Shown piece after piece: positions 52,601 to 63,795 of a stretch of 63,795 nt of DNA. The notes beneath the pieces were generated by a model that saw nothing but the letters and a program-made list of their open reading frames with translations, made no database searches and was not told the DNA's origin. The DNA comes from an uncultured Chthonomonas sp. GTDB taxonomy: Bacteria; Armatimonadota; Chthonomonadetes; Chthonomonadales; CAJBBX01. The position numbers were made by a program, and so were the translations under genes. Position 1 is the first letter of the stretch, and the number at the start of each line of letters is the position of its first letter. The stretch covers positions 1-63,795 of the forward strand of contig CAISJD010000089.1 in the NCBI GenBank assembly GCA_903885605.1, in the 5' to 3' direction.

Positions 52601-52819
52601 ATGAGCGATGAAGCATGCGTCTTCAGCTTGGTGACAGAGCCATGGATACCCGTGATGTGGCGGGACGGCGCCACCGAACGCCTGGGGCTGGCGGAGACGC
52701 TGCGCAGGGCGCATCAGGTGCGCGGTATTGTGGCAGGCGATCCAGGCGCTGGCCGCCTCAGCGCGGGCACGCCGGCTAACGTGAGGTTGACGCAGAGGGA
52801 TGCCGGTGGACGCGGCTAA
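52601..52819 (+). pseudogene. Truncated cse1 (casA) 5' copy upstream of cas3
   Basis: This 72-residue frame begins MSDEACVFSLVTEPWIPVMW and continues through RRAHQVRGI. It aligns with the full Cse1 at 55708 (YNLLTEDWIPTMR, then YQAHELGDI) over about 45 residues, after which similarity is lost. AGGAG precedes its ATG, and its stop overlaps the cas3 ATG by 20 nt. Upstream, TATGCT at 52536-52541 could be a -10 box without a clear -35. It may be a dead duplicate or a short leader peptide translated ahead of cas3. Confidence 0.7.
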
Positions 52820-55598
52820 GCTGCTGCTGTTGTGGGGGAAGACCGACAGTACCGACCAGGCGCGGTACCATCCGCTCCTGTTCCACATGCTGGATGTCGG
52901 GTTCGTTGCGCACGCGCTCTGGCATGAGGCGGTGCCGCCGGTGATGCGCCGGCGCGTGGCCGGAGCACTCGGGCTGTCCGAGGACGATGCCGGCCGCGTG
53001 GTCGCGCTACTGGCCGCCCAGCATGACTTTGGGAAGGCCTCTGCCTTCCAGATGAAGGCGCCGTCGCTCTGGCCCCAGGTCGCCAGTATCGGTGATAACC
53101 CTGACGTCGGTGGAACCGCACACGGGCATGGAACGCTCACATACGTTGCATTGCCTCCGGTGTGCAGCGATGGCGCGGGAGGGTGGACCGGCACGCCGAG
53201 GGCCGTGAAGGCGCTCGCGAAGATCACCGCCGGCCACCACGGGGCATTCCCACTGGCGGCACAGAGCGTGGGCCCGAACGAACCCGGGCGGGCCGCGTTG
53301 GGCGGCCCGGCTTGGGATGAAGCCAGACGCGGGCTCGCCACGCAGCTGTCCGACCTCTTGTTTCCTGACCAGGCGCCTCTTTGCCTCGGCGCGGCCCGCC
53401 TGCGCGATGCCACGTTGGCTCCCGTGGTCGGTGGCCTCATCAGCATCGCGGACTGGATCGGCTCGTCCACGACGCACTTTCCAGTGGCGTGGCCGCGGGA
53501 ACCCCGTGGCTATGCGCTCTGCTCGCAACGCCAGGCAGGCGAGGCGCTGGCTGCCCTGCACTGGACGCCGGCTCTTCACTGGCCCGCGCAGACAGACTTC
53601 GGCGCCATATTCCGAACGGAGCTCGGGGTTCCCTACGAGCCCAACGCACTACAGCGCGCAGTTGCGCGGTTGGCGCGAACCGCGTCGGCTCCGTACCTGA
53701 TGGTCGTTGAAGCGGCCATGGGCGACGGCAAGACGGAGGCGGCTCTTTACGCGGCTGACTGCGCGCTCAGCGCGGGCCTCGCGCGGGGGCTGTATGTGGC
53801 ACTGCCCACACAGGCTACCGGCGACGCGATGTTTCGGCGAGTGGTCGATGGGTACCTTTGCCATCGGAGTGGTCTCGGCCGGCTGAACCTGCAGCTTGTG
53901 CACGGCGGCGCCGCGCTATCCAAGGACTTTGAGAGGCTGCAACAGGCCGCCCTTGAGCTCGACCTGCGAGCGGTCGATGAGTACGCTGGCGGCGACACTC
54001 AGGACGGCGGCGCGGTCGTCGCCGAGGCGTGGTTCACGGCAGCGAAGCAGGCCCTCCTGGCCCCGCTGGGCGTCGGCACAGTCGATCAGGCCCTCCTCAG
54101 CGTCCTCCAGACGCGGCACTGGTTCGTGAGGCTGCACGGGCTCGCCGGGAAGGTGATCGTCCTGGATGAAGTGCATGCTTACGATGTATACACCTCAAGC
54201 CTCCTCTGTCGGTTGCTGGCCTGGCTACGGCAGCTCGGGTGCTCGGTGATCCTGCTCTCCGCAACGCTGCCGGCGGCACGGCGAGCCGAACTGATCGGCG
54301 CGTGGGGAGCCGAACTGCCTGCCGTGGAACAGCCGTACCCTCGACTCACATTCGCAACTGGGGATCAGGCCGGCTCCGTCGGCATCGAGGGCTGGGCAAG
54401 CCGCAGGTCAGTCCGGCTCACCGCCATCCCGTGCGACCTGGGCGGACTGGGTGCGCGGCTGCGCGCGGACCTGCCAGGCGGCGGGTGCGCGGCCGTGATC
54501 TGCAACACCGTGGGCCGCGCGCAGGAGGCCTTCCGTACGCTACGCTCCGAGCTAAGGCCGGAGGGCTGGTTGGTCCTGCTTGTCCACGCCCGCATGCCCG
54601 CCAGGTGGCGCGCTACGCGGGAACGCAGGATCCTGCGCCTTCTCGGCAGGAGCGGGCGCCGACCCCGACGGCTCGTGGTCGTGGGTACCCAGGTCTTGGA
54701 GCAGAGCCTTGACATCGACCTGGATTGGATGGCGTCCGACATGGCTCCGGTCGATCTGATCTTGCAGCGCATGGGCCGGGTCTGGCGCCATGAGCGCCAG
54801 GACAGGCCCGCGCCAGAGCCGCGCATGGCTGTGATGGTCGATACGGGGTCGGACGGACTGCCGATCTTCCCGCCGGGCGCCGAGCGCGTCTACTCGCGGT
54901 ATGTTCTGCTTCGCTCAGCCCTTGCCCTCAGCAGTGGCCTCCTCCAGGACGCAGGCCTGTTGGACACCGAAGGGCGCCTCCGCCTTCCGGAGGCGATTGC
55001 GCCGGTGGTCTCGACTGTCTACAGCGCGGATGCGCTTGCCCCAGACGACGCCTGGACTGAGGCTCTCGCACATGCAGAGGCGGCGGACGTCCGTCTGTCA
55101 GAGCGAGATCGGCTTAAGGCGGATCGCGTACTGACGCCTGCGCCCGAAGCGAGTCTTGACACGGTGCTGGAGCCGGGCGCTGACGGCCAGGCCACGCGGA
55201 CGGTCTTGTTTGACGATGAGGACCCGCGGGTCCACCCTGACGTGCGCGTGGCAACCCGGCTCGGGCGACCCTCTGTGTCGGTGGTCTGCCTGGGCGAGTC
55301 CGCCGTCGGTTTGGCGTTTGGGGCTCCGGGCATGGGTGTGCCCGACGCGAACGAAGCCAGGACGCTGGCCGGCTGGTCGGTTTCCATCAGCGATCCACGG
55401 CTGTTCTGTGCGCTCGTTAGTCAGGAGCCACGGCCGGAGTGGCGGAGGTCTCGGCACCTAAGGCACCACCGCGAAATCGTGTTCATCGCGGGACAGGCGT
55501 GTGTTGGGGACTGCGTGGTCTCACTGTCGCGACAGGAAGGCCTCACGGTTGGGCGCGGCCGGGGAGGAGACACAGACGCGAAGCCATGCGACGAGTAG
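52800..55598 (+). CDS. cas3: CRISPR-associated nuclease-helicase Cas3, type I-E
   Basis: The 932-residue product joins an HD nuclease and a superfamily 2 helicase. HD residues are in YHPLLFHMLD (His24, His29), AAQHDFGK (His75-Asp76) and AGHHGAF. The helicase has Walker A MGDGKTEAAL, LDEVHAYD (DEVH box), SATLP, and the later VGTQVLEQSLDIDLDW and LILQRMGRVWRH. It degrades DNA marked by Cascade. The ATG at 52800 lies within the end of the truncated cse1 frame. Length is close to that of E. coli Cas3 (888 residues). It is separated from cse1 by 109 nt. Confidence 0.95.
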   Translation: MPVDAAKLLLLWGKTDSTDQARYHPLLFHMLDVGFVAHALWHEAVPPVMRRRVAGALGLSEDDAGRVVALLAAQHDFGKASAFQMKAPSLWPQVASIGDNPDVGGTAHGHGTLTYVALPPVCSDGAGGWTGTPRAVKALAKITAGHHGAFPLAAQSVGPNEPGRAALGGPAWDEARRGLATQLSDLLFPDQAPLCLGAARLRDATLAPVVGGLISIADWIGSSTTHFPVAWPREPRGYALCSQRQAGEALAALHWTPALHWPAQTDFGAIFRTELGVPYEPNALQRAVARLARTASAPYLMVVEAAMGDGKTEAALYAADCALSAGLARGLYVALPTQATGDAMFRRVVDGYLCHRSGLGRLNLQLVHGGAALSKDFERLQQAALELDLRAVDEYAGGDTQDGGAVVAEAWFTAAKQALLAPLGVGTVDQALLSVLQTRHWFVRLHGLAGKVIVLDEVHAYDVYTSSLLCRLLAWLRQLGCSVILLSATLPAARRAELIGAWGAELPAVEQPYPRLTFATGDQAGSVGIEGWASRRSVRLTAIPCDLGGLGARLRADLPGGGCAAVICNTVGRAQEAFRTLRSELRPEGWLVLLVHARMPARWRATRERRILRLLGRSGRRPRRLVVVGTQVLEQSLDIDLDWMASDMAPVDLILQRMGRVWRHERQDRPAPEPRMAVMVDTGSDGLPIFPPGAERVYSRYVLLRSALALSSGLLQDAGLLDTEGRLRLPEAIAPVVSTVYSADALAPDDAWTEALAHAEAADVRLSERDRLKADRVLTPAPEASLDTVLEPGADGQATRTVLFDDEDPRVHPDVRVATRLGRPSVSVVCLGESAVGLAFGAPGMGVPDANEARTLAGWSVSISDPRLFCALVSQEPRPEWRRSRHLRHHREIVFIAGQACVGDCVVSLSRQEGLTVGRGRGGDTDAKPCDE

Positions 55599-55707: not shown

Positions 55708-57294
55708 ATGAGCGGTTCCAGCTACAACCTGCTGACAGAGGACTGGATACCCACTATGCGTGCGGATGGAGGGGTTCAGTTGGTGGGCGTTCGGCGCGCG
55801 CTCTACCAGGCGCACGAACTGGGCGACATCCGGTGCATGTCGCCGCTGAGCACTGCCGCCCTTACGCGAATCCTGCTGGCAGTGCTGTACCGTGCCTGCG
55901 GGCCGCAGACCATGGACGAGTGGGAGGAGATGCTCCTGGCCGGGCGGTTCCCTGAGGAGCGCGTGACGCGTTACCTCGATGACTGGCACGAGCGCTTTGA
56001 CCTCTTCTCACCCACGCGGCCGTTCATGCAGACGCCCGGCCTATCGATGGGCCATGCCGGCTCACTGGCTCAGCTCGCCGCGGAGACCGCAGCGGGCAAC
56101 ACCCCGACGCTCTTCGACCACACGACAGACGCCCTACCGCGCCCCGCCCTTCCGGCGGAGGCGGCTCGCCTCCTGGTTACGGCGCAGGCATTCGCCCTGG
56201 GCTTCGGCAAGGCAGGCAACGCGATCGTGGATGGCACCACGATCCAACGCCCGTACTTCGCGGACGCCATATGTCTGCGCGGCGTTACGCTGTGGCTCTC
56301 CGGAGCGAGCCTGTTTGAGACGCTTATGCTCAACCTTGTACCGTTCCCGCGCGATGCTACAGGTCGGCCCGAGTGGGAGCGCCCAGACCCACTGGAATCG
56401 TGCGACCGCCTCACTGGCAAGGAGCGGATTAGCCGGCTCGCAGAAGGCCCGGCGGATCGCTATGCCTGGACCAGCCGCCTGCTCCTGCTGATCCAGGAGG
56501 ATGACGGGACTGTACAACGTGCCTACTTCACCCAGGGGCGGGAAGCAGACAAGGTCGGGCGCGACCCCATGAAGGCGTACACGGCCAGCAAGGAGGAGGG
56601 CGTGTACGCCATCGGCCTCAACGCATCCAAAGCTGCATGGCGGGACCTGACGGCGTACCTGGAGACCGGCAACCTCGGCTGCCAGATTCTGCAGCACGCG
56701 GCCTCCCAGACGGACGCCGGTGTGCTGGAGCGCGGCGCAGCCATGGCCCTCAATGTTGTGGGCCTTGCCACGGATCCCGGTAAGGCGGGGAAGTTCGTGA
56801 TGTGGCGGCACGACCGGGTGAGCGTACCGGCCGCCATCCTGGCTGACCGGGACGCGAAGGAGGCGCTCGCCACGGCGTTACGGGATGCTGAGTTCGTGGC
56901 ATTTGAGCTTGGCGGGCGTATGAGGTCGGTGGCGTGGTGGTTCCTGCCGCCGGAGGGCAACCCTGACATGAATGACGTGGCGAGTCTTGCCGCTGCCCTG
57001 GACCCGAGAACCGCCTTCTGGGCCCGTGTCGAGCAGCACTTCGCCCATCTGCTCACCGACCTGGGCAGGGCTGAGGCCGAGGCGCTTCCGGTGTGGCGCA
57101 AACGCCTGGAGGGCGAGGCCCGTCGGGCCTTTGCGGCGGCCTGTGATCGGCTTGGCGACAGCAGCCGGGCCATCCGCGCCGTGGCGCATGTCTCAGCGTT
57201 GTTCAGCGCCGATGCGGCGGAGGCATCGCTGAAGCGGAAGCAGGCAACACGCAAGAGCCGTGATGCGAAAACCAAAGGAGGGAAGATCGCATGA
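55708..57294 (+). CDS. cse1: Cascade large subunit Cse1 (CasA)
   Basis: The 528-residue protein is the type I-E large subunit, which reads the PAM and recruits Cas3. Segments are YNLLTEDWIPTMRADG, RILLAVLYRACG, RFDLFSPTRPFMQTPG, and NTPTLFDHTTD in the middle, with a C-terminal helical bundle. GGACGAGG lies before the ATG. Its stop overlaps the cse2 ATG by 4 nt. Confidence 0.95.
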   Translation: MSGSSYNLLTEDWIPTMRADGGVQLVGVRRALYQAHELGDIRCMSPLSTAALTRILLAVLYRACGPQTMDEWEEMLLAGRFPEERVTRYLDDWHERFDLFSPTRPFMQTPGLSMGHAGSLAQLAAETAAGNTPTLFDHTTDALPRPALPAEAARLLVTAQAFALGFGKAGNAIVDGTTIQRPYFADAICLRGVTLWLSGASLFETLMLNLVPFPRDATGRPEWERPDPLESCDRLTGKERISRLAEGPADRYAWTSRLLLLIQEDDGTVQRAYFTQGREADKVGRDPMKAYTASKEEGVYAIGLNASKAAWRDLTAYLETGNLGCQILQHAASQTDAGVLERGAAMALNVVGLATDPGKAGKFVMWRHDRVSVPAAILADRDAKEALATALRDAEFVAFELGGRMRSVAWWFLPPEGNPDMNDVASLAAALDPRTAFWARVEQHFAHLLTDLGRAEAEALPVWRKRLEGEARRAFAAACDRLGDSSRAIRAVAHVSALFSADAAEASLKRKQATRKSRDAKTKGGKIA

Positions 57295-57860
57295 GCGACA
57301 CCACGTACAGACGGGGCGGTCAGCCGCTTGTGGACTCGCTGCTGAAGCTTGCGGTGACTTCCGACACCAACCCGTCAGCCCGTGCGGCGCTGGCCGAGCT
57401 CCGTCGCGGGGTCACCGACCCGATCCGGGCCGCCAAGCATGTCATCCCGTACTTGCCGGCCACCGGTGCCGGAAGCGCAGAACACCTGATCGACCGGTAC
57501 TTCCTGGTCGCAAGCCTCTTCGCATGGTCGCGCCAGCACCAGCCCGGTGTGTCGATGGGTCATGCCTTCGCCCGGATCAGGGACGACTCCGGAAGCATGG
57601 AGAAGCGCCTCATGGCCTTGCTGGCAACCCCGGCCGAGACCCTGGGCGCCCGGCTGGGGCAGTGCGTGCGACTGCTCGCCGGCAAGGGCGTGGGCCTGGA
57701 CTGGACCATGCTCCTGGACGACGTCCTGCACTGGGACGATAGCGGCAAGCCGCGGCAACGCCGCCTCGCCCGCGACTTCTACCGCCGCCATGACGCCGTC
57801 GATGATGCCGGCGCGGAAGCGTCGGCCAACCCCACAAAGGAGGGGATCGAACAGCCATGA
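57291..57860 (+). CDS. cse2: Cascade small subunit Cse2 (CasB)
   Basis: The 189-residue helical protein matches Cse2, which lines Cascade as a dimer and stabilises target and non-target strands. It has ARAALAELRRGVTDPIRAAKHVIPYL early and VRLLAGKGVGLDWTMLLDDVLHWDD late, split by helices. AAAGGAGGG precedes the ATG, which sits in the cse1 stop (ATGA). It also overlaps the cas7 start by 4 nt. Confidence 0.93.
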   Translation: MSDTTYRRGGQPLVDSLLKLAVTSDTNPSARAALAELRRGVTDPIRAAKHVIPYLPATGAGSAEHLIDRYFLVASLFAWSRQHQPGVSMGHAFARIRDDSGSMEKRLMALLATPAETLGARLGQCVRLLAGKGVGLDWTMLLDDVLHWDDSGKPRQRRLARDFYRRHDAVDDAGAEASANPTKEGIEQP

Positions 57861-58903
57861 AGATCGAGATTCACCTGCTGCAGAACTTCGCGCCGTCGTG
57901 CCTGAACCGCGACGATACGAACACACCCAAGTCGTGCGTGTTCGGCGACCGACCCCGTGCGCGCGTCTCGAGCCAGTGCTGGAAGCGTGCCGTGCGCCGC
58001 CTGTTCGCCGATGAGAACGCAGAGCTGGTGGGCACTCGCACCAAGCGGCTCGTGACCCTTCTGCGTGAGCGGCTGGGGCCGGAGATCAAGGACGAGAGCA
58101 TCAAGGAGTTCGTCGGGGAGTGCTACTCCAAGATGGATGGCAAGAGGGGCACGGAGACCGCGGTCCTGGTCTTCATCGGCGAGGCGGAGGTCGCAGCGGC
58201 CGCCGAGTGCATCGCGCAGGGCGTGACGCCCAAGGAAGCCTCACCGCGGCTGCGCTCCGCCCGCCAGTCGGTCGATATCGCGCTGTTCGGGCGCATGCTG
58301 GCGGAGAAGCCCGAGGGGAGCATCGACGCGGCGTGCCAGGTGGCCCACGCGATATCTACCCATGCCGTGGACATGGAGGACGACTTCTACACGGCGGTGG
58401 ATGACCTGGTTGAGGCCCGCGGCGAGATCGGCGCAGGGATGATGGGCACCCAGGGCTTCAACTCCGCCTGCTTCTACCGCTACGCCGTCGTGGATATCAA
58501 CCAGCTCGCGGCCAACCTCGGTGGCGACCGCGATACCGCGAAGGCCGCCGTACAGGCGTTTCTGCGCGCGTTCTCGTTGGCGGTACCCTCCGCCAAGCAG
58601 AACAGCCATGCGGCCCAGAGCCTTCCGTCGTTCGGCCTGCTCGTCGCCCGCGACCATGGCGGCCCGATCTCGCTGGCCAACGCGTTCGCCAAGCCCATCC
58701 GCGGCGACGATCTCATTGGCTCCTCCATCCGGGCCCTAACCAACTACCAGGCGCGGGTGCAGGAGGTCTACGGCCTCTATGACGGCGCCACCCTGGCTGC
58801 GTTCCACGATCGCGACGACGCCGCGCCGCTGGGTCTGCCGGCCGGTGTCACGGCCAAGGGCCTCTCGGCGGCGATCGCGGCCATCATGGAACGCATGGCG
58901 TGA
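57857..58903 (+). CDS. cas7: Cascade backbone Cas7 (Cse4/CasC)
   Basis: The 348-residue product is the crRNA-binding backbone, six copies per Cascade. It opens IEIHLLQNFAPSCLNRDD and KSCVFGDRPRARVSSQCWKR. SARQSVDIALFGRML, DDFYTAVDDLVEA and GTQGFNSACFYRYAVVDINQL are family segments, as is PSAKQNSHAAQSLPSFGLLV late. The start overlaps the cse2 stop (ATGA), and the stop is joined to cas5 by TGATG. Confidence 0.96.
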   Translation: MKIEIHLLQNFAPSCLNRDDTNTPKSCVFGDRPRARVSSQCWKRAVRRLFADENAELVGTRTKRLVTLLRERLGPEIKDESIKEFVGECYSKMDGKRGTETAVLVFIGEAEVAAAAECIAQGVTPKEASPRLRSARQSVDIALFGRMLAEKPEGSIDAACQVAHAISTHAVDMEDDFYTAVDDLVEARGEIGAGMMGTQGFNSACFYRYAVVDINQLAANLGGDRDTAKAAVQAFLRAFSLAVPSAKQNSHAAQSLPSFGLLVARDHGGPISLANAFAKPIRGDDLIGSSIRALTNYQARVQEVYGLYDGATLAAFHDRDDAAPLGLPAGVTAKGLSAAIAAIMERMA

Positions 58904-59601
58904 TGCCACACACGCTGCTGATCCCACTGGTGGGACCGATGCAGGCCTGGGGTAGCCGCAGCAGGTTCGATGACCGTGACACGCACCCCGAACCAACGAA
59001 GAGCGGGGTCCTGGGCCTGGTCTGCGCTGCGCTCGGGCGCGGCCGCACTGAGTCCATCGATGACCTTGCAGAGATGCGATTCGGCGTCCGCTCGGACGTG
59101 CCTGGTATGGCCGTCTCCGACTTCCAGACGGCCCAGAGAGTTCTGCGGGCGTCGGGCGGCGGCACGACGTCCGTGACCTCTCGGCGCCACTACCTGTCGG
59201 ATGCCGTGTTCCTGGCGGGCTTGGAGTCGGCCAGCCTGGCTCTGGTTCGTGCAATCGAGGCCGCGCTCATGGACCCGGTCTGGGTGCTGTCGCTTGGCCG
59301 GAAGGGCTACCCGCTCACGGCGCCCCCATACCTTCCCTGGGGTTCAGTCCGCGAAGGCGTGCCTTTAGAACAGGCCCTGGCTGCAGAGCCGTGGCGTCCG
59401 CTCTACCCGCTGCCGGAGTGGCGCCCACGCCCTGATCAGCTGCGGGTCCTCGTTGAGGACCTCGAAGGCGAGGACGGCGCGATCGCGGACGTCCCGCTGG
59501 CGTTCGACCGGCGCCAGTTCGGCTTACGGCGCGTTCGGTCCCACATGGCGCCGAGGGAAGGGGAGGGGGAGGCATGGTCTACCTGTCCGTCATCAAGCTG
59601 A
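58903..59601 (+). CDS. cas5: Cascade subunit Cas5e (CasD)
   Basis: The 232-residue product begins MPHTLLIPLVGPMQAWGSRS, the Cas5e signature region, followed by DRDTHPEPTKSGVLGLVCAALG. It binds the 5' handle of crRNA. VTSRRHYLSDAVFLAGLES lies mid-protein. The ATG shares one base with the cas7 stop (TGATG); a GTG one codon before is possible. Its last 28 nt overlap cas6e. Confidence 0.94.
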   Translation: MPHTLLIPLVGPMQAWGSRSRFDDRDTHPEPTKSGVLGLVCAALGRGRTESIDDLAEMRFGVRSDVPGMAVSDFQTAQRVLRASGGGTTSVTSRRHYLSDAVFLAGLESASLALVRAIEAALMDPVWVLSLGRKGYPLTAPPYLPWGSVREGVPLEQALAAEPWRPLYPLPEWRPRPDQLRVLVEDLEGEDGAIADVPLAFDRRQFGLRRVRSHMAPREGEGEAWSTCPSSS

Positions 59602-60293
59602 ACGTCCGCACGAACGCCGCTCTGCGGGCGCTAGCAGACACGCATGCGATGCATCGACTGCTCCTTCACGCCTTCCCTGAGGCAGATGCGGGCGGCCCAG
59701 GAAGGGTGCTGTTCAGAGCCGAACTGGGCGGCGCCGAGCCGCGCGTCCTGGTGCAATCCACCGCTGAGCCTGAGTGGTCGCGAGCCGGCGACGCCATTCG
59801 CGTTGTCAGCGAACCCAAGCGTGTGAGCCTTCTGGACACCGACGGTATGCCGGTGCTCCGCAAGGGGCAGGCCTTGCGCTTCCGGCTGCGGGCGAACCCG
59901 ACCTTCAGGGCCGGCCATGGCCACCGGCCCGAGGACCTCGGCAAGCGTCTGGCGATCATGGATGAGCCCGGTCAGCTGGCGTGGCTGGAACGGAAGGGTG
60001 GCGCTGCCGGGTTTGAGCCGATGCCTCTGTCGGCGAGCGCGGCACAGGTCGGCCCGGCAACCGAGGGCGGCCAGAGGAGCATTGCGGTGCAGGTGACGCC
60101 GCTCAGCTTCTCCACAGGCCATCGTACCGGCGGATCGCCCGAGGCAGGCCGGCTCAGACACTTTGGTGTCGAGTTCGACGGCATCCTCCGAGTCACGGAC
60201 CCGGCCCGACTGGTCGCGGCGATCGAGAGCGGCATCGGCCCTGCCAAGGGCTTTGGTTTCGGTCTTCTGTCGGTGGCGCCGGTCAGGGAGTGA
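59574..60293 (+). CDS. cas6e: CRISPR repeat endoribonuclease Cas6e (CasE)
   Basis: The 239-residue product processes pre-crRNA at the base of the repeat hairpin and stays bound to the 3' end. It begins MVYLSVIKLNVRTNAALR and contains HRLLLHAFP, with a candidate catalytic His in the mid-20s. VLFRAELGGAEPRVLVQS follows, and the C-terminus carries the RNA-binding Gly-rich loop GPAKGFGFGLL. The start overlaps the cas5 end by 28 nt. The stop is 4 nt before the next ORF. Confidence 0.95.
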   Translation: MVYLSVIKLNVRTNAALRALADTHAMHRLLLHAFPEADAGGPGRVLFRAELGGAEPRVLVQSTAEPEWSRAGDAIRVVSEPKRVSLLDTDGMPVLRKGQALRFRLRANPTFRAGHGHRPEDLGKRLAIMDEPGQLAWLERKGGAAGFEPMPLSASAAQVGPATEGGQRSIAVQVTPLSFSTGHRTGGSPEAGRLRHFGVEFDGILRVTDPARLVAAIESGIGPAKGFGFGLLSVAPVRE

Positions 60294-60297
60294 ATGT

Positions 60298-60711
60298 ATG
60301 CAAGACGCCACGCGTTCGCTAGTGGAGATATCGCTTGAGTGGGCCGCCAAGAAGCTCGGGGCGGCTGATGGCTTCTCTCTTGTCGGGATGTCGGAGGACG
60401 CAGACGCAGTACGACGTGGCATCGTAGTCCATGTGAAGTCGGATGCCGATATGCAGGTAAGTGCGCGTGAGTTCTTGGACAACACGCACGCCACCCGTTT
60501 CGCGCTTGTCGGCGAAGGAACCATCGCTGCCGGCGGCACCACGATCAGCGTGCTCATTGTGTACTGGCAAGACGGTAGTCAGGCACAAGTGCAGCTCGGG
60601 CTGATGCCGTACACTCGCGGTGAGCAGGGCGAGGTACAGCTGGCTGATCGCATGGTCGCATCCGATCACGCTCCGCCAGGATCGTGGCTGCCGGCGCCGA
60701 AGGAGGCCTAG
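60298..60711 (+). CDS. Unrecognised 137-residue protein between cas6e and cas1
   Basis: I do not recognise a family. The product begins MQDATRSLVEISLEWAAKKL and appears to be alpha/beta: an N-terminal helix, a beta strand around GFSLVG, a helix around SAREFLDNTHATRF, a beta-rich core (FALVGEGTI, ISVLIVYWQDG, QVQLGLMPYT), then VQLADRMVASDHAPPG. There is no signal or membrane segment. GGGAG precedes the ATG. It is spaced tightly (4 nt after cas6e, 28 nt before cas1), so it should be co-transcribed with the Cas genes. Canonical type I-E operons have no gene here. It could be an adaptation accessory, a regulator, or a passenger. Confidence 0.75.
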   Translation: MQDATRSLVEISLEWAAKKLGAADGFSLVGMSEDADAVRRGIVVHVKSDADMQVSAREFLDNTHATRFALVGEGTIAAGGTTISVLIVYWQDGSQAQVQLGLMPYTRGEQGEVQLADRMVASDHAPPGSWLPAPKEA

Positions 60712-60739
60712 CGAAGACCGCGCAACCGAGGACCCGACC

Positions 60740-61660
60740 ATGGATGATCTACATGCCCTACCGAAGATGCGGGACAGCATCAGTTCGTTGTACATAGAGC
60801 GGGGGAGGATCGACCGGGACGAGAAGTCCATTGCCGTGCATGACAAGGACGGCGTGACGGCGATCCCTGTGGCCTCGCTCGCGGTGCTCATGCTCGGGCC
60901 CGGCACCCGGATCACCCATGCGGCGATTCGGGTGCTGGCCGAGAACAACTGCCTTGCCGTCTGGTGCGGCGAGGAGAACGTTCGGTTCTACGCCTCCGGT
61001 ACAGGGGGCACCCGCAGCGCGGCTCCTCTCCTCTGGCAGGCAAGGCTGGCGAGCCTGGAGGAGACACGGCTCGAAGTGGTGAAGCGCATGTACACGGTCC
61101 GCTTCAAGGACCCCGTGCCCGCGAATGCCGGCGTCCAACAGCTTCGAGGCTGGGAAGGGGTGCGCGTCCGCGAGGCCTACGCTCAGGCGAGCAAGGCCAC
61201 GGGCGTGAAGTGGGAGGGTCGGAACTACGACCGGACGAACTGGGCGACTGCCGACCCGGCCAACCGGGCGCTCTCGTGCGCGAACTCGTGCCTGTATGGG
61301 CTGTGCCACGCCGCCATCCTGGCCACGGGGTTCAGCCCGGCCATCGGGTTCATCCATACCGGCAAGCAGTTGTCGTTCGTGTACGACATCGCCGACCTGT
61401 ACAAGGTGGAGATCTCGATACCGCTGGCGTTCCGGGCCGCCGCCGAGGCGTCCACGGATCTGGAGAGGACGGTCCGGCTGCAATGCCGTGAGACGTTCCG
61501 GGAGAGCCGGCTGCTGCAGCGCGTGGCGCCCGACATCCGCCGGGTACTGGCTGTGGACGAGGAGCTGTTGGGAGACGACTTTGTGGCAGATGCGGACCCG
61601 GCGCTACCTGCCCCGCTTTGGACGCCCGCAACTGAGCTTGCCGACTCCTCGGAGGGCTAG
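60740..61660 (+). CDS. cas1: CRISPR adaptation integrase Cas1, type I-E
   Basis: The 306-residue integrase begins LPKMRDSISSLYIERGRIDR. Active-site residues of Cas1 are visible in WEGVRVREAYAQAS (Glu), GFIHTGKQLSFVYDIADLYK (His and Asp) and the surrounding ALSCANSCLYGLCHAAILA-type helix. It inserts spacers with Cas2. The ATG at 60740 fits the known Cas1e N-terminus; the frame is open further upstream but shadows the preceding ORF. Cas2 follows after 3 nt. Confidence 0.96.
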   Translation: MDDLHALPKMRDSISSLYIERGRIDRDEKSIAVHDKDGVTAIPVASLAVLMLGPGTRITHAAIRVLAENNCLAVWCGEENVRFYASGTGGTRSAAPLLWQARLASLEETRLEVVKRMYTVRFKDPVPANAGVQQLRGWEGVRVREAYAQASKATGVKWEGRNYDRTNWATADPANRALSCANSCLYGLCHAAILATGFSPAIGFIHTGKQLSFVYDIADLYKVEISIPLAFRAAAEASTDLERTVRLQCRETFRESRLLQRVAPDIRRVLAVDEELLGDDFVADADPALPAPLWTPATELADSSEG

Positions 61661-61663
61661 GGT

Positions 61664-61999
61664 ATGGTGGTGCTCATGCTGGAGCGCGTACCCGCAACAC
61701 TGCGAGGCGAGCTCTCGCGCTGGATGATCGAACCGCGCACCGGCGTGTTCGTCGGCCGCGTATCGGCGATGGTCCGTGACAAGATATGGGAGATGGCCGA
61801 GAAGGGCGCGAAGGGCGGGGCGGGCGCACTGGTCTACGCGGCGCCAACCGAGCAGGGCTTCGCCGTGCAGACGTTCGGTGACATGTCTCGGACTTTGGTG
61901 GACATGGAGGGGCTTACACTTGTGCGCGTACCTCACAAGGTGGCCGCCGACGCACGCTCAGAATCGGCTGACGACGCCGATGCGCCAGACGTGGCCTAG
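61664..61999 (+). CDS. cas2: CRISPR adaptation protein Cas2, type I-E, with 20-residue tail
   Basis: The 111-residue product matches Cas2e: MVVLMLERVPATLRGELSRW, then EPRTGVFVGRVSAMVRDKIW and FGDMSRTLVDMEGLTLVRVP. It bridges two Cas1 dimers during spacer integration. E. coli Cas2 is 94 residues and ends soon after the last strand; here about 20 acidic, low-complexity residues (AADARSESADDADAPDVA) follow. GGAGGG precedes the ATG. The first CRISPR repeat starts only 15 nt after the stop. Confidence 0.94.
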   Translation: MVVLMLERVPATLRGELSRWMIEPRTGVFVGRVSAMVRDKIWEMAEKGAKGGAGALVYAAPTEQGFAVQTFGDMSRTLVDMEGLTLVRVPHKVAADARSESADDADAPDVA

Positions 62000-62014
62000 T
62001 AGGCGGATGTATGT

Positions 62015-63795
62015 GTATTCCCCACGCACGTGGGGGTGAACCGTATAAATCCAGCCACAAATGCCACGGATACTAGTATTCCCCACGCACGTGGGGGTGA
62101 ACCGGCGAAGTCAGACGTTGATGCTGCGAACCTGGCGTATTCCCCACGCACGTGGGGGTGAACCGCTAGAGGCTTGGGCTGATGGTGGCCCCCATCCGTA
62201 TTCCCCACGCACGTGGGGGTGAACCGCGGTACTCGCGCTTATCGATCGAGAAGTTGAAGTATTCCCCACGCACGTGGGGGTGAACCGCATCGACGAGAAC
62301 GCCATCGGGGCACGCGGCCCGTATTCCCCACGCACGTGGGGGTGAACCGGCAGCAGGGCCTGCGCTGGGCATCCCGCTGATGTATTCCCCACGCACGTGG
62401 GGGTGAACCGTCGGGGCTGCAGGGCGTCAACGCTGAACTCAGGTATTCCCCACGCACGTGGGGGTGAACCATGTGAGCTGATGTTTCCCCGAGCGCTGTT
62501 TCCGTATTCCCCACGCACGTGGGGGTGAACCGGAGCGCATGGAGTCAGGAGTACCCTCAGTAAAGTATTCCCCACGCACGTGGGGGTGAACCGGTAGTCG
62601 AGTACCGCATCGAGTGGCAGGGCGTGTATTCCCCACGCACGTGGGGGTGAACCGGCCACTATCGGCTCTCGGAGGGATATCCTGCGGTATTCCCCACGCA
62701 CGTGGGGGTGAACCGAACGGCGCCGCGAAGCCGAAGCCCGCCGCGCCGTATTCCCCACGCACGTGGGGGTGAACCGTCTGTCCGCATGGATAGATGGACG
62801 ACGTGGGTGTATTCCCCACGCACGTGGGGGTGAACCGGTTCGTCGCGTCCAGGGTGCCGATCTTGGGTGGTATTCCCCACGCACGTGGGGGTGAACCGAA
62901 GACCTACCTGGACTGGAGTACGGCCAGCATGTATTCCCCACGCACGTGGGGGTGAACCGAACATGCCCACGCCCAACCAGTTCTACGGCGCGTATTCCCC
63001 ACGCACGTGGGGGTGAACCGGCCACGTCGGCGGCCAGAAGGCGCATCATCATGTATTCCCCACGAACGTGGGGGTGAACCGGAGCAGCGGTGGCAGGCTC
63101 GGTTCCTGGAGGCGTATTCCCCACGCACGTGGGGGTGAACCGGGCTATCTCGTCCAACACGGCTACCGAGCTTAGTATTCCCCACGCACGTGGGGGTGAA
63201 CCGTAGATGGCAGTGCTCGCGAGGACATCGGACGAGTATTCCCCACGCACGTGGGGGTGAACCGGCAACGCGTGCCCGTGGTTTCGCCGCTCAGGTGTAT
63301 TCCCCACGCACGTGGGGGTGAACCGTCCAGCCGCAGGCAGGCGACACCTACCAACTAGTATTCCCCACGCACGTGGGGGTGAACCGCAGGCGATCTCCGG
63401 TGTGGCGCGCCCGCACAAGTATTCCCCACGCACGTGGGGGTGAACCGAAAGGTAGCGTACATCCTGCGGAGCAGCATGAGTATTCCCCACGCACGTGGGG
63501 GTGAACCGCCGGCACCCGGATGAGGACGCCCTCCCTCCTCGTATTCCCCACGCACGTGGGGGTGAACCGTCCATTCGGGCGACATCCGCATGGATGCAAG
63601 CGTATTCCCCACGCACGTGGGGGTGAACCGTTGGGCACTGCGATGCGGAGCACGCCGCCCGGGTATTCCCCACGCACGTGGGGGTGAACCGGGACCACTG
63701 AAGGAGTTATTTGAAAAGGTGGCGTATTCCCCACGCACGTGGGGGTGAACCGTGCTGCGAGTGGACGCCGAGTACGTCCTGCCCGTATTCCCCAC
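62015..63795 (+). CRISPR. Type I-E CRISPR array, at least 30 repeats, continues past window
   Basis: The repeat is 29 nt, starting GTATTCCCCACGCACGTGGG and ending GGTGAACCG, with a CCCCAC/GTGGGG hairpin. Repeats begin at 62015, 62076, 62137 and then every 61 nt (one 62-nt step after 62259) up to a truncated 30th at 63785. The 29 visible spacers are 32 nt except one of 33 nt, and none are duplicated. The E. coli-like GTGAACCG handle orientation indicates transcription on the plus strand, away from cas2. Repeat 8 ends in A instead of G; repeat 18 has an internal C-to-A change (CACGAACG). Spacer targets cannot be named from sequence alone. Confidence 0.98.

Follow-up and report, generated by a model that had tools for sequence, protein, structure and literature searches.

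The window (the whole 63,795-nt stretch of DNA that was analysed, from an uncultured Chthonomonas sp. of the phylum Armatimonadota) ends in a complete type I-E CRISPR-Cas operon, in which all eight cas genes, assigned with Pfam and NCBIfam profiles, are present and collinear. The order on the + strand, up to the contig end, is cas3-cse1-cse2-cas7e-cas5e-cas6e-X-cas1e-cas2e-CRISPR, where X is the gene under study. The interference genes are cas3 (52800..55598), which encodes HD and helicase domains, cse1/cas8e (55708..57294), cse2/cas11 (57291..57860), cas7e (57857..58903), cas5e (58900..59601), in which PF09704 is the sole domain and an HNH domain is absent, and cas6e (59574..60293; TIGR01907/PF08798). 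The adaptation genes are cas1e (60740..61660; TIGR03638) and cas2e (61664..61999; TIGR01873, 111 aa), and these are followed by a CRISPR array (62015..63795, + strand) of 29 repeats of 29 nt, the I-E type, with 28 spacers of 32 nt. The first repeat lies only ~15 nt past the cas2 stop (61999–62015), as it also does in a same-genus genome, G001 (locus L051, 3167–3182); this leaves no space there for a leader of the usual kind, which, if present, would have to be within the 3′ end of cas2 or at the array's far end.

X (60298..60711, + strand) occupies most of the 446 nt that separate cas6e from cas1. Its reading frame runs for 137 codons from an ATG at 60298 to a TAG ending at 60711, beginning 4 nt past the cas6e stop (60291–60293) and ending 28 nt ahead of the cas1 ATG (60740). 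A Shine-Dalgarno-like site, AGGGAG (60285..60290, + strand), falls within the last codons of cas6e, with the ATG of X 7 nt on, and cas1 has a GAGGA of its own (60728–60732) 7 nt upstream. These coordinates, together with the codon usage, agree with the earlier note, which had described a clean frame on the same strand with its own ribosome site.

When codon statistics were trained on the other long ORFs of the window and compared with 2000 shuffles, the in-frame score of X was 0.123 bits/codon, against −0.47 ± 0.10 in the shuffles, none of which scored as high (5.7 s.d. above), and the contrast between its frames was that of the cas genes. X therefore very probably codes for a protein. Taken alone, the length of the frame is weak evidence, a 137-codon stop-free stretch being expected by chance with P of about 0.012. 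Long open frames are common in GC-rich DNA and no homologue backs X, but a spurious ORF, whether a frame of mere read-through or a stretch of spacer, from which no protein is made, is extremely improbable in view of the codon score, the cas-like frame contrast, and the ribosome site, as well as the 446 nt present here where relatives mostly have 5–94 nt. The GC content of X (62%; GC3, 0.69) is lower than that of both neighbours (cas6e, 68% and 0.79; cas1, 67% and 0.85), and X is a single-copy gene in its own genome. Neither a sigma-70-like promoter nor an Rfam match was found in the X region. Because X is co-directional with cas6e, lies 4 nt from it, and has its own ribosome site, it would probably be translated from the cas operon mRNA.

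The product of X resembled no known family. It had no matches among the profiles of Pfam, NCBIfam, and PADLOC, no significant match in PHROGs, and no match among curated Cas and defence profiles, and no solved structure in the PDB was matched by sequence. Nothing was found in viral contigs, plasmids, or phages, or in 84,980 species genomes, where the viral-contig and species-genome scans detect only close relatives because they require exact 8-residue words. More sensitive whole-genome searches of the 290 other Armatimonadota genomes (tblastn) and of 396 genomes from the class of an Anaerolineae genome gave only chance-level matches. The weak Armatimonadota matches (E, 0.007–0.05) either covered only part of longer, unrelated proteins or ran through frames containing stops, and we attribute them to chance over 291 genomes. 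At the DNA level, besides X itself, only short chance matches (mostly 16–40 nt) occurred in 21 related genomes. Nor does X look like what is left of a resident Cas gene, since it has no similarity to the ORFs of any of the cas loci compared.

A small orphan alpha+beta protein with a deviating GC content could have been carried into the operon as the cargo of a mobile element, for instance as an anti-CRISPR or another small gene of phage origin. This origin is highly unlikely, given that X had no match in phages, viral contigs, plasmids, or PHROGs, and that neither flanking mobile-element genes nor a convincing target-site duplication was evident around it. Comparison of its predicted structure with viral structures likewise gave no significant match. 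The AlphaFold2 model, built from the single sequence, was of moderate quality (pLDDT, 67; pTM, 0.67) and placed an N-terminal helix against a curved, mostly antiparallel sheet. The best VIA match of the model was cystatin A2 (8gqq; Z, 4.8; rmsd, 3.6 over 85 residues), NTF2-like folds scored Z of about 3–4, and the best Foldseek match in the PDB was not significant (E, 0.24). The modelled protein thus resembles cystatin and NTF2-like folds in its helix on an antiparallel sheet, but too weakly for membership, and the predicted arrangement is a common one that says nothing about function.

We then considered whether X recurs at the border between cas6e and cas1. Cas1e was present in 38 of the 291 genomes of the phylum, and the survey comprised about 35 readable cas6e-cas1 junctions from these loci plus eight from annotated plasmids of other phyla. 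X was found at none of the approximately 35 phylum junctions, most of whose gaps are 5–94 nt; the wider gaps are taken up by a CRISPR array in L014, by CRISPR-like repeats in L032, and by short ORFs unlike X in L034 and L036. The L014 (G112:C254) array splits its operon, extending over about 560 nt from cas6e to cas1. X was likewise absent from the eight plasmid type I-E junctions (Cyanobacteriota, Deinococcota, Actinomycetota, and Pseudomonadota), which contain no gene at this point: cas1 adjoins cas6e, or, in a Bifidobacterium record without an annotated cas6e, cas5e adjoins cas1. As a positive control, the same tblastn search detected Cas6e (27–42% identity) and the 111-aa Cas2e at the phylum loci. 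Cas6e evolves fast and ranks among the operon's less conserved proteins. Since it was still detected at 27–42% identity, a homologue of X diverging at the rate of Cas6e should have shown up. In the literature that was searched, too, no gene was found described between cas6e and cas1. The description of X as an unrecognised gene at a position that is non-canonical for type I-E thus holds, with no profile match and no such gene in the junctions examined, whereas the recurrence in other type I-E loci that would have pointed to a CRISPR role was not observed.

The closest comparison is with G001 (locus L051, G001:C146), whose Cas1 and Cas2 are 98% and 93% identical to those of the window and whose repeat differs by one base; the two arrays have no spacers in common. 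The cas6e-cas1 gap of G001 is 36 nt and has no gene inside, and this absence of X from so close a relative, too, tells against a CRISPR role, although the comparison is clean for the adaptation half only, because G001 has a different interference module. Its Cas5 is fused to an HNH domain (PF01844), whereas that of the window is PF09704 alone; its Cas6e is only 35% identical to that of the window; and no Cas3 was found in G001–G008. Cas5-HNH has been described as a type I-E-related variant (Altae-Tran 2023, PMC10910872). The family members G011 and G006 carry the same HNH-type Cas5 and a related Cas6e.

The maximum-likelihood tree of Cas1 placed the window inside the HNH-bearing clade of its family (100/99), whereas the tree of Cas6e left it out of the corresponding HNH clade (100/100). 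Because the two trees disagree sharply on the placement of the window, replacement of the interference module is clear: in the simplest reading of these sequences, the lineage of the window swapped a Cas5-HNH module for a Cas3-type module, extending from cas3 to cas6e, and kept its resident cas1-cas2 and array. The closest Cas7e among the genomes compared is about 58% identical, and no second genome with the interference module of the window was present among them. A further case of this kind may be L020 (G244:C95), whose Cas1 groups beside the Cas5-HNH loci (next to L019_HNH) while its Cas6e falls among the canonical loci, apparently as the result of a second, independent module exchange. The resident repeats of the window would now need processing by a Cas6e with only 35% identity to that of G001.

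X is located exactly at this phylogenetic discontinuity, the seam between the two modules. The position of the break can perhaps be narrowed further. The 3′ tail of cas6e (60226..60281, + strand) is 86% identical at the nucleotide level to that of G001, even though the proteins are 35% identical; over the last 56 bp, G001 was the best match of the 28 tails compared, and the -RE ending of Cas6e is common to the window, G001, and G011. The likeness is only suggestive of a crossover within this tail, by which X would come to lie on the resident side, because a conserved glycine-rich loop is encoded here and the second-best match among the tails is almost as close.

Where X stood relative to the crossover bears on whether it came with the new module, as an accessory protein from the donor of the Cas3-type cassette that assists Cascade or Cas3, or connects these with Cas1-Cas2. 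X follows cas6e by only 4 nt, its ribosome site lies within the cas6e end, and the genomes compared, which reach Cas7e of about 58% identity at the nearest, do not sample the exact donor. We nevertheless regard this origin as unlikely: the nearest canonical modules (L016, L017, L023, and L024/L037; cas6e, 37–42%) are without X, the GC content of X is unlike that of the cassette, and the resident-like cas6e tail, suggestive as it is, would put X on the other side of the crossover.

Alternatively, X could serve this lineage as a helper in adaptation or as a regulator that couples the modules, a lineage-specific “patch gene” through which the resident Cas1-Cas2 and array can cooperate with a foreign Cas3-type module. 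It sits precisely at the seam, and the array looks functional, being long and nearly uniform over its 29 repeats and 28 spacers. This function is quite unlikely, however, because the junction of L020 (G244), a locus with a similar Cas1/Cas6e mismatch, is 22 nt long and devoid of genes, and X has no DNA-binding or Cas-accessory match.

We consider it probable that X is instead a lineage-specific passenger gene, caught at a permissive seam during or after the module swap, and not a recurring CRISPR part. Its absence from all the other junctions examined and its GC and GC3, lower than those of both neighbours, favour this explanation, whereas the tight operon packing and the intact coding frame suggest that its protein has been kept or that it arrived recently. 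The resident adaptation module (cas1-cas2-array) would have met the incoming interference module (cas3 to cas6e) with X lodged between them, its entry presumably falling during or after the replacement. The site is permissive in that an insertion between two modules breaks no gene, and X is most likely not required for interference or adaptation. An accessory protein from the donor cassette ranks second after a passenger gene, and a coupling factor third. Among the adaptation helper, coupling regulator, and chance insertion that the earlier note had offered, chance insertion accordingly fits best, the site being the seam of a module replacement, while a CRISPR role has lost ground with the lack of recurrence. 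We found no evidence for such a role, and several of the results speak against a recurring one.

Taken alone, X is nothing out of the ordinary, an orphan that sits within a cas operon. More can be learned from its surroundings: the window and G001, although of one genus and alike in adaptation genes and repeats, differ in their interference modules, Cas3-type in the window and Cas5-HNH in G001. The two lend themselves to the question of whether a single Cas1-Cas2 and array can serve both modules, and whether seam genes like X matter.

With canonical Cas3-bearing type I-E systems, the operon of the window shares the full gene set, the canonical order, the I-E repeat, and Cas1e/Cas2e, and it differs from them by one additional orphan gene at the cas6e-cas1 junction. 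The Cas5-HNH variant of type I-E is carried by G001, G011, and G006, whose Cas1-Cas2 are nearly the same as, or related to, those of the window; the window is unlike this variant in that cas3 is present and Cas5 lacks the HNH domain. Because its relatives carry Cas5-HNH while the window has a Cas3-type module and a Cas5 without HNH, it is this half of the operon that has been replaced.
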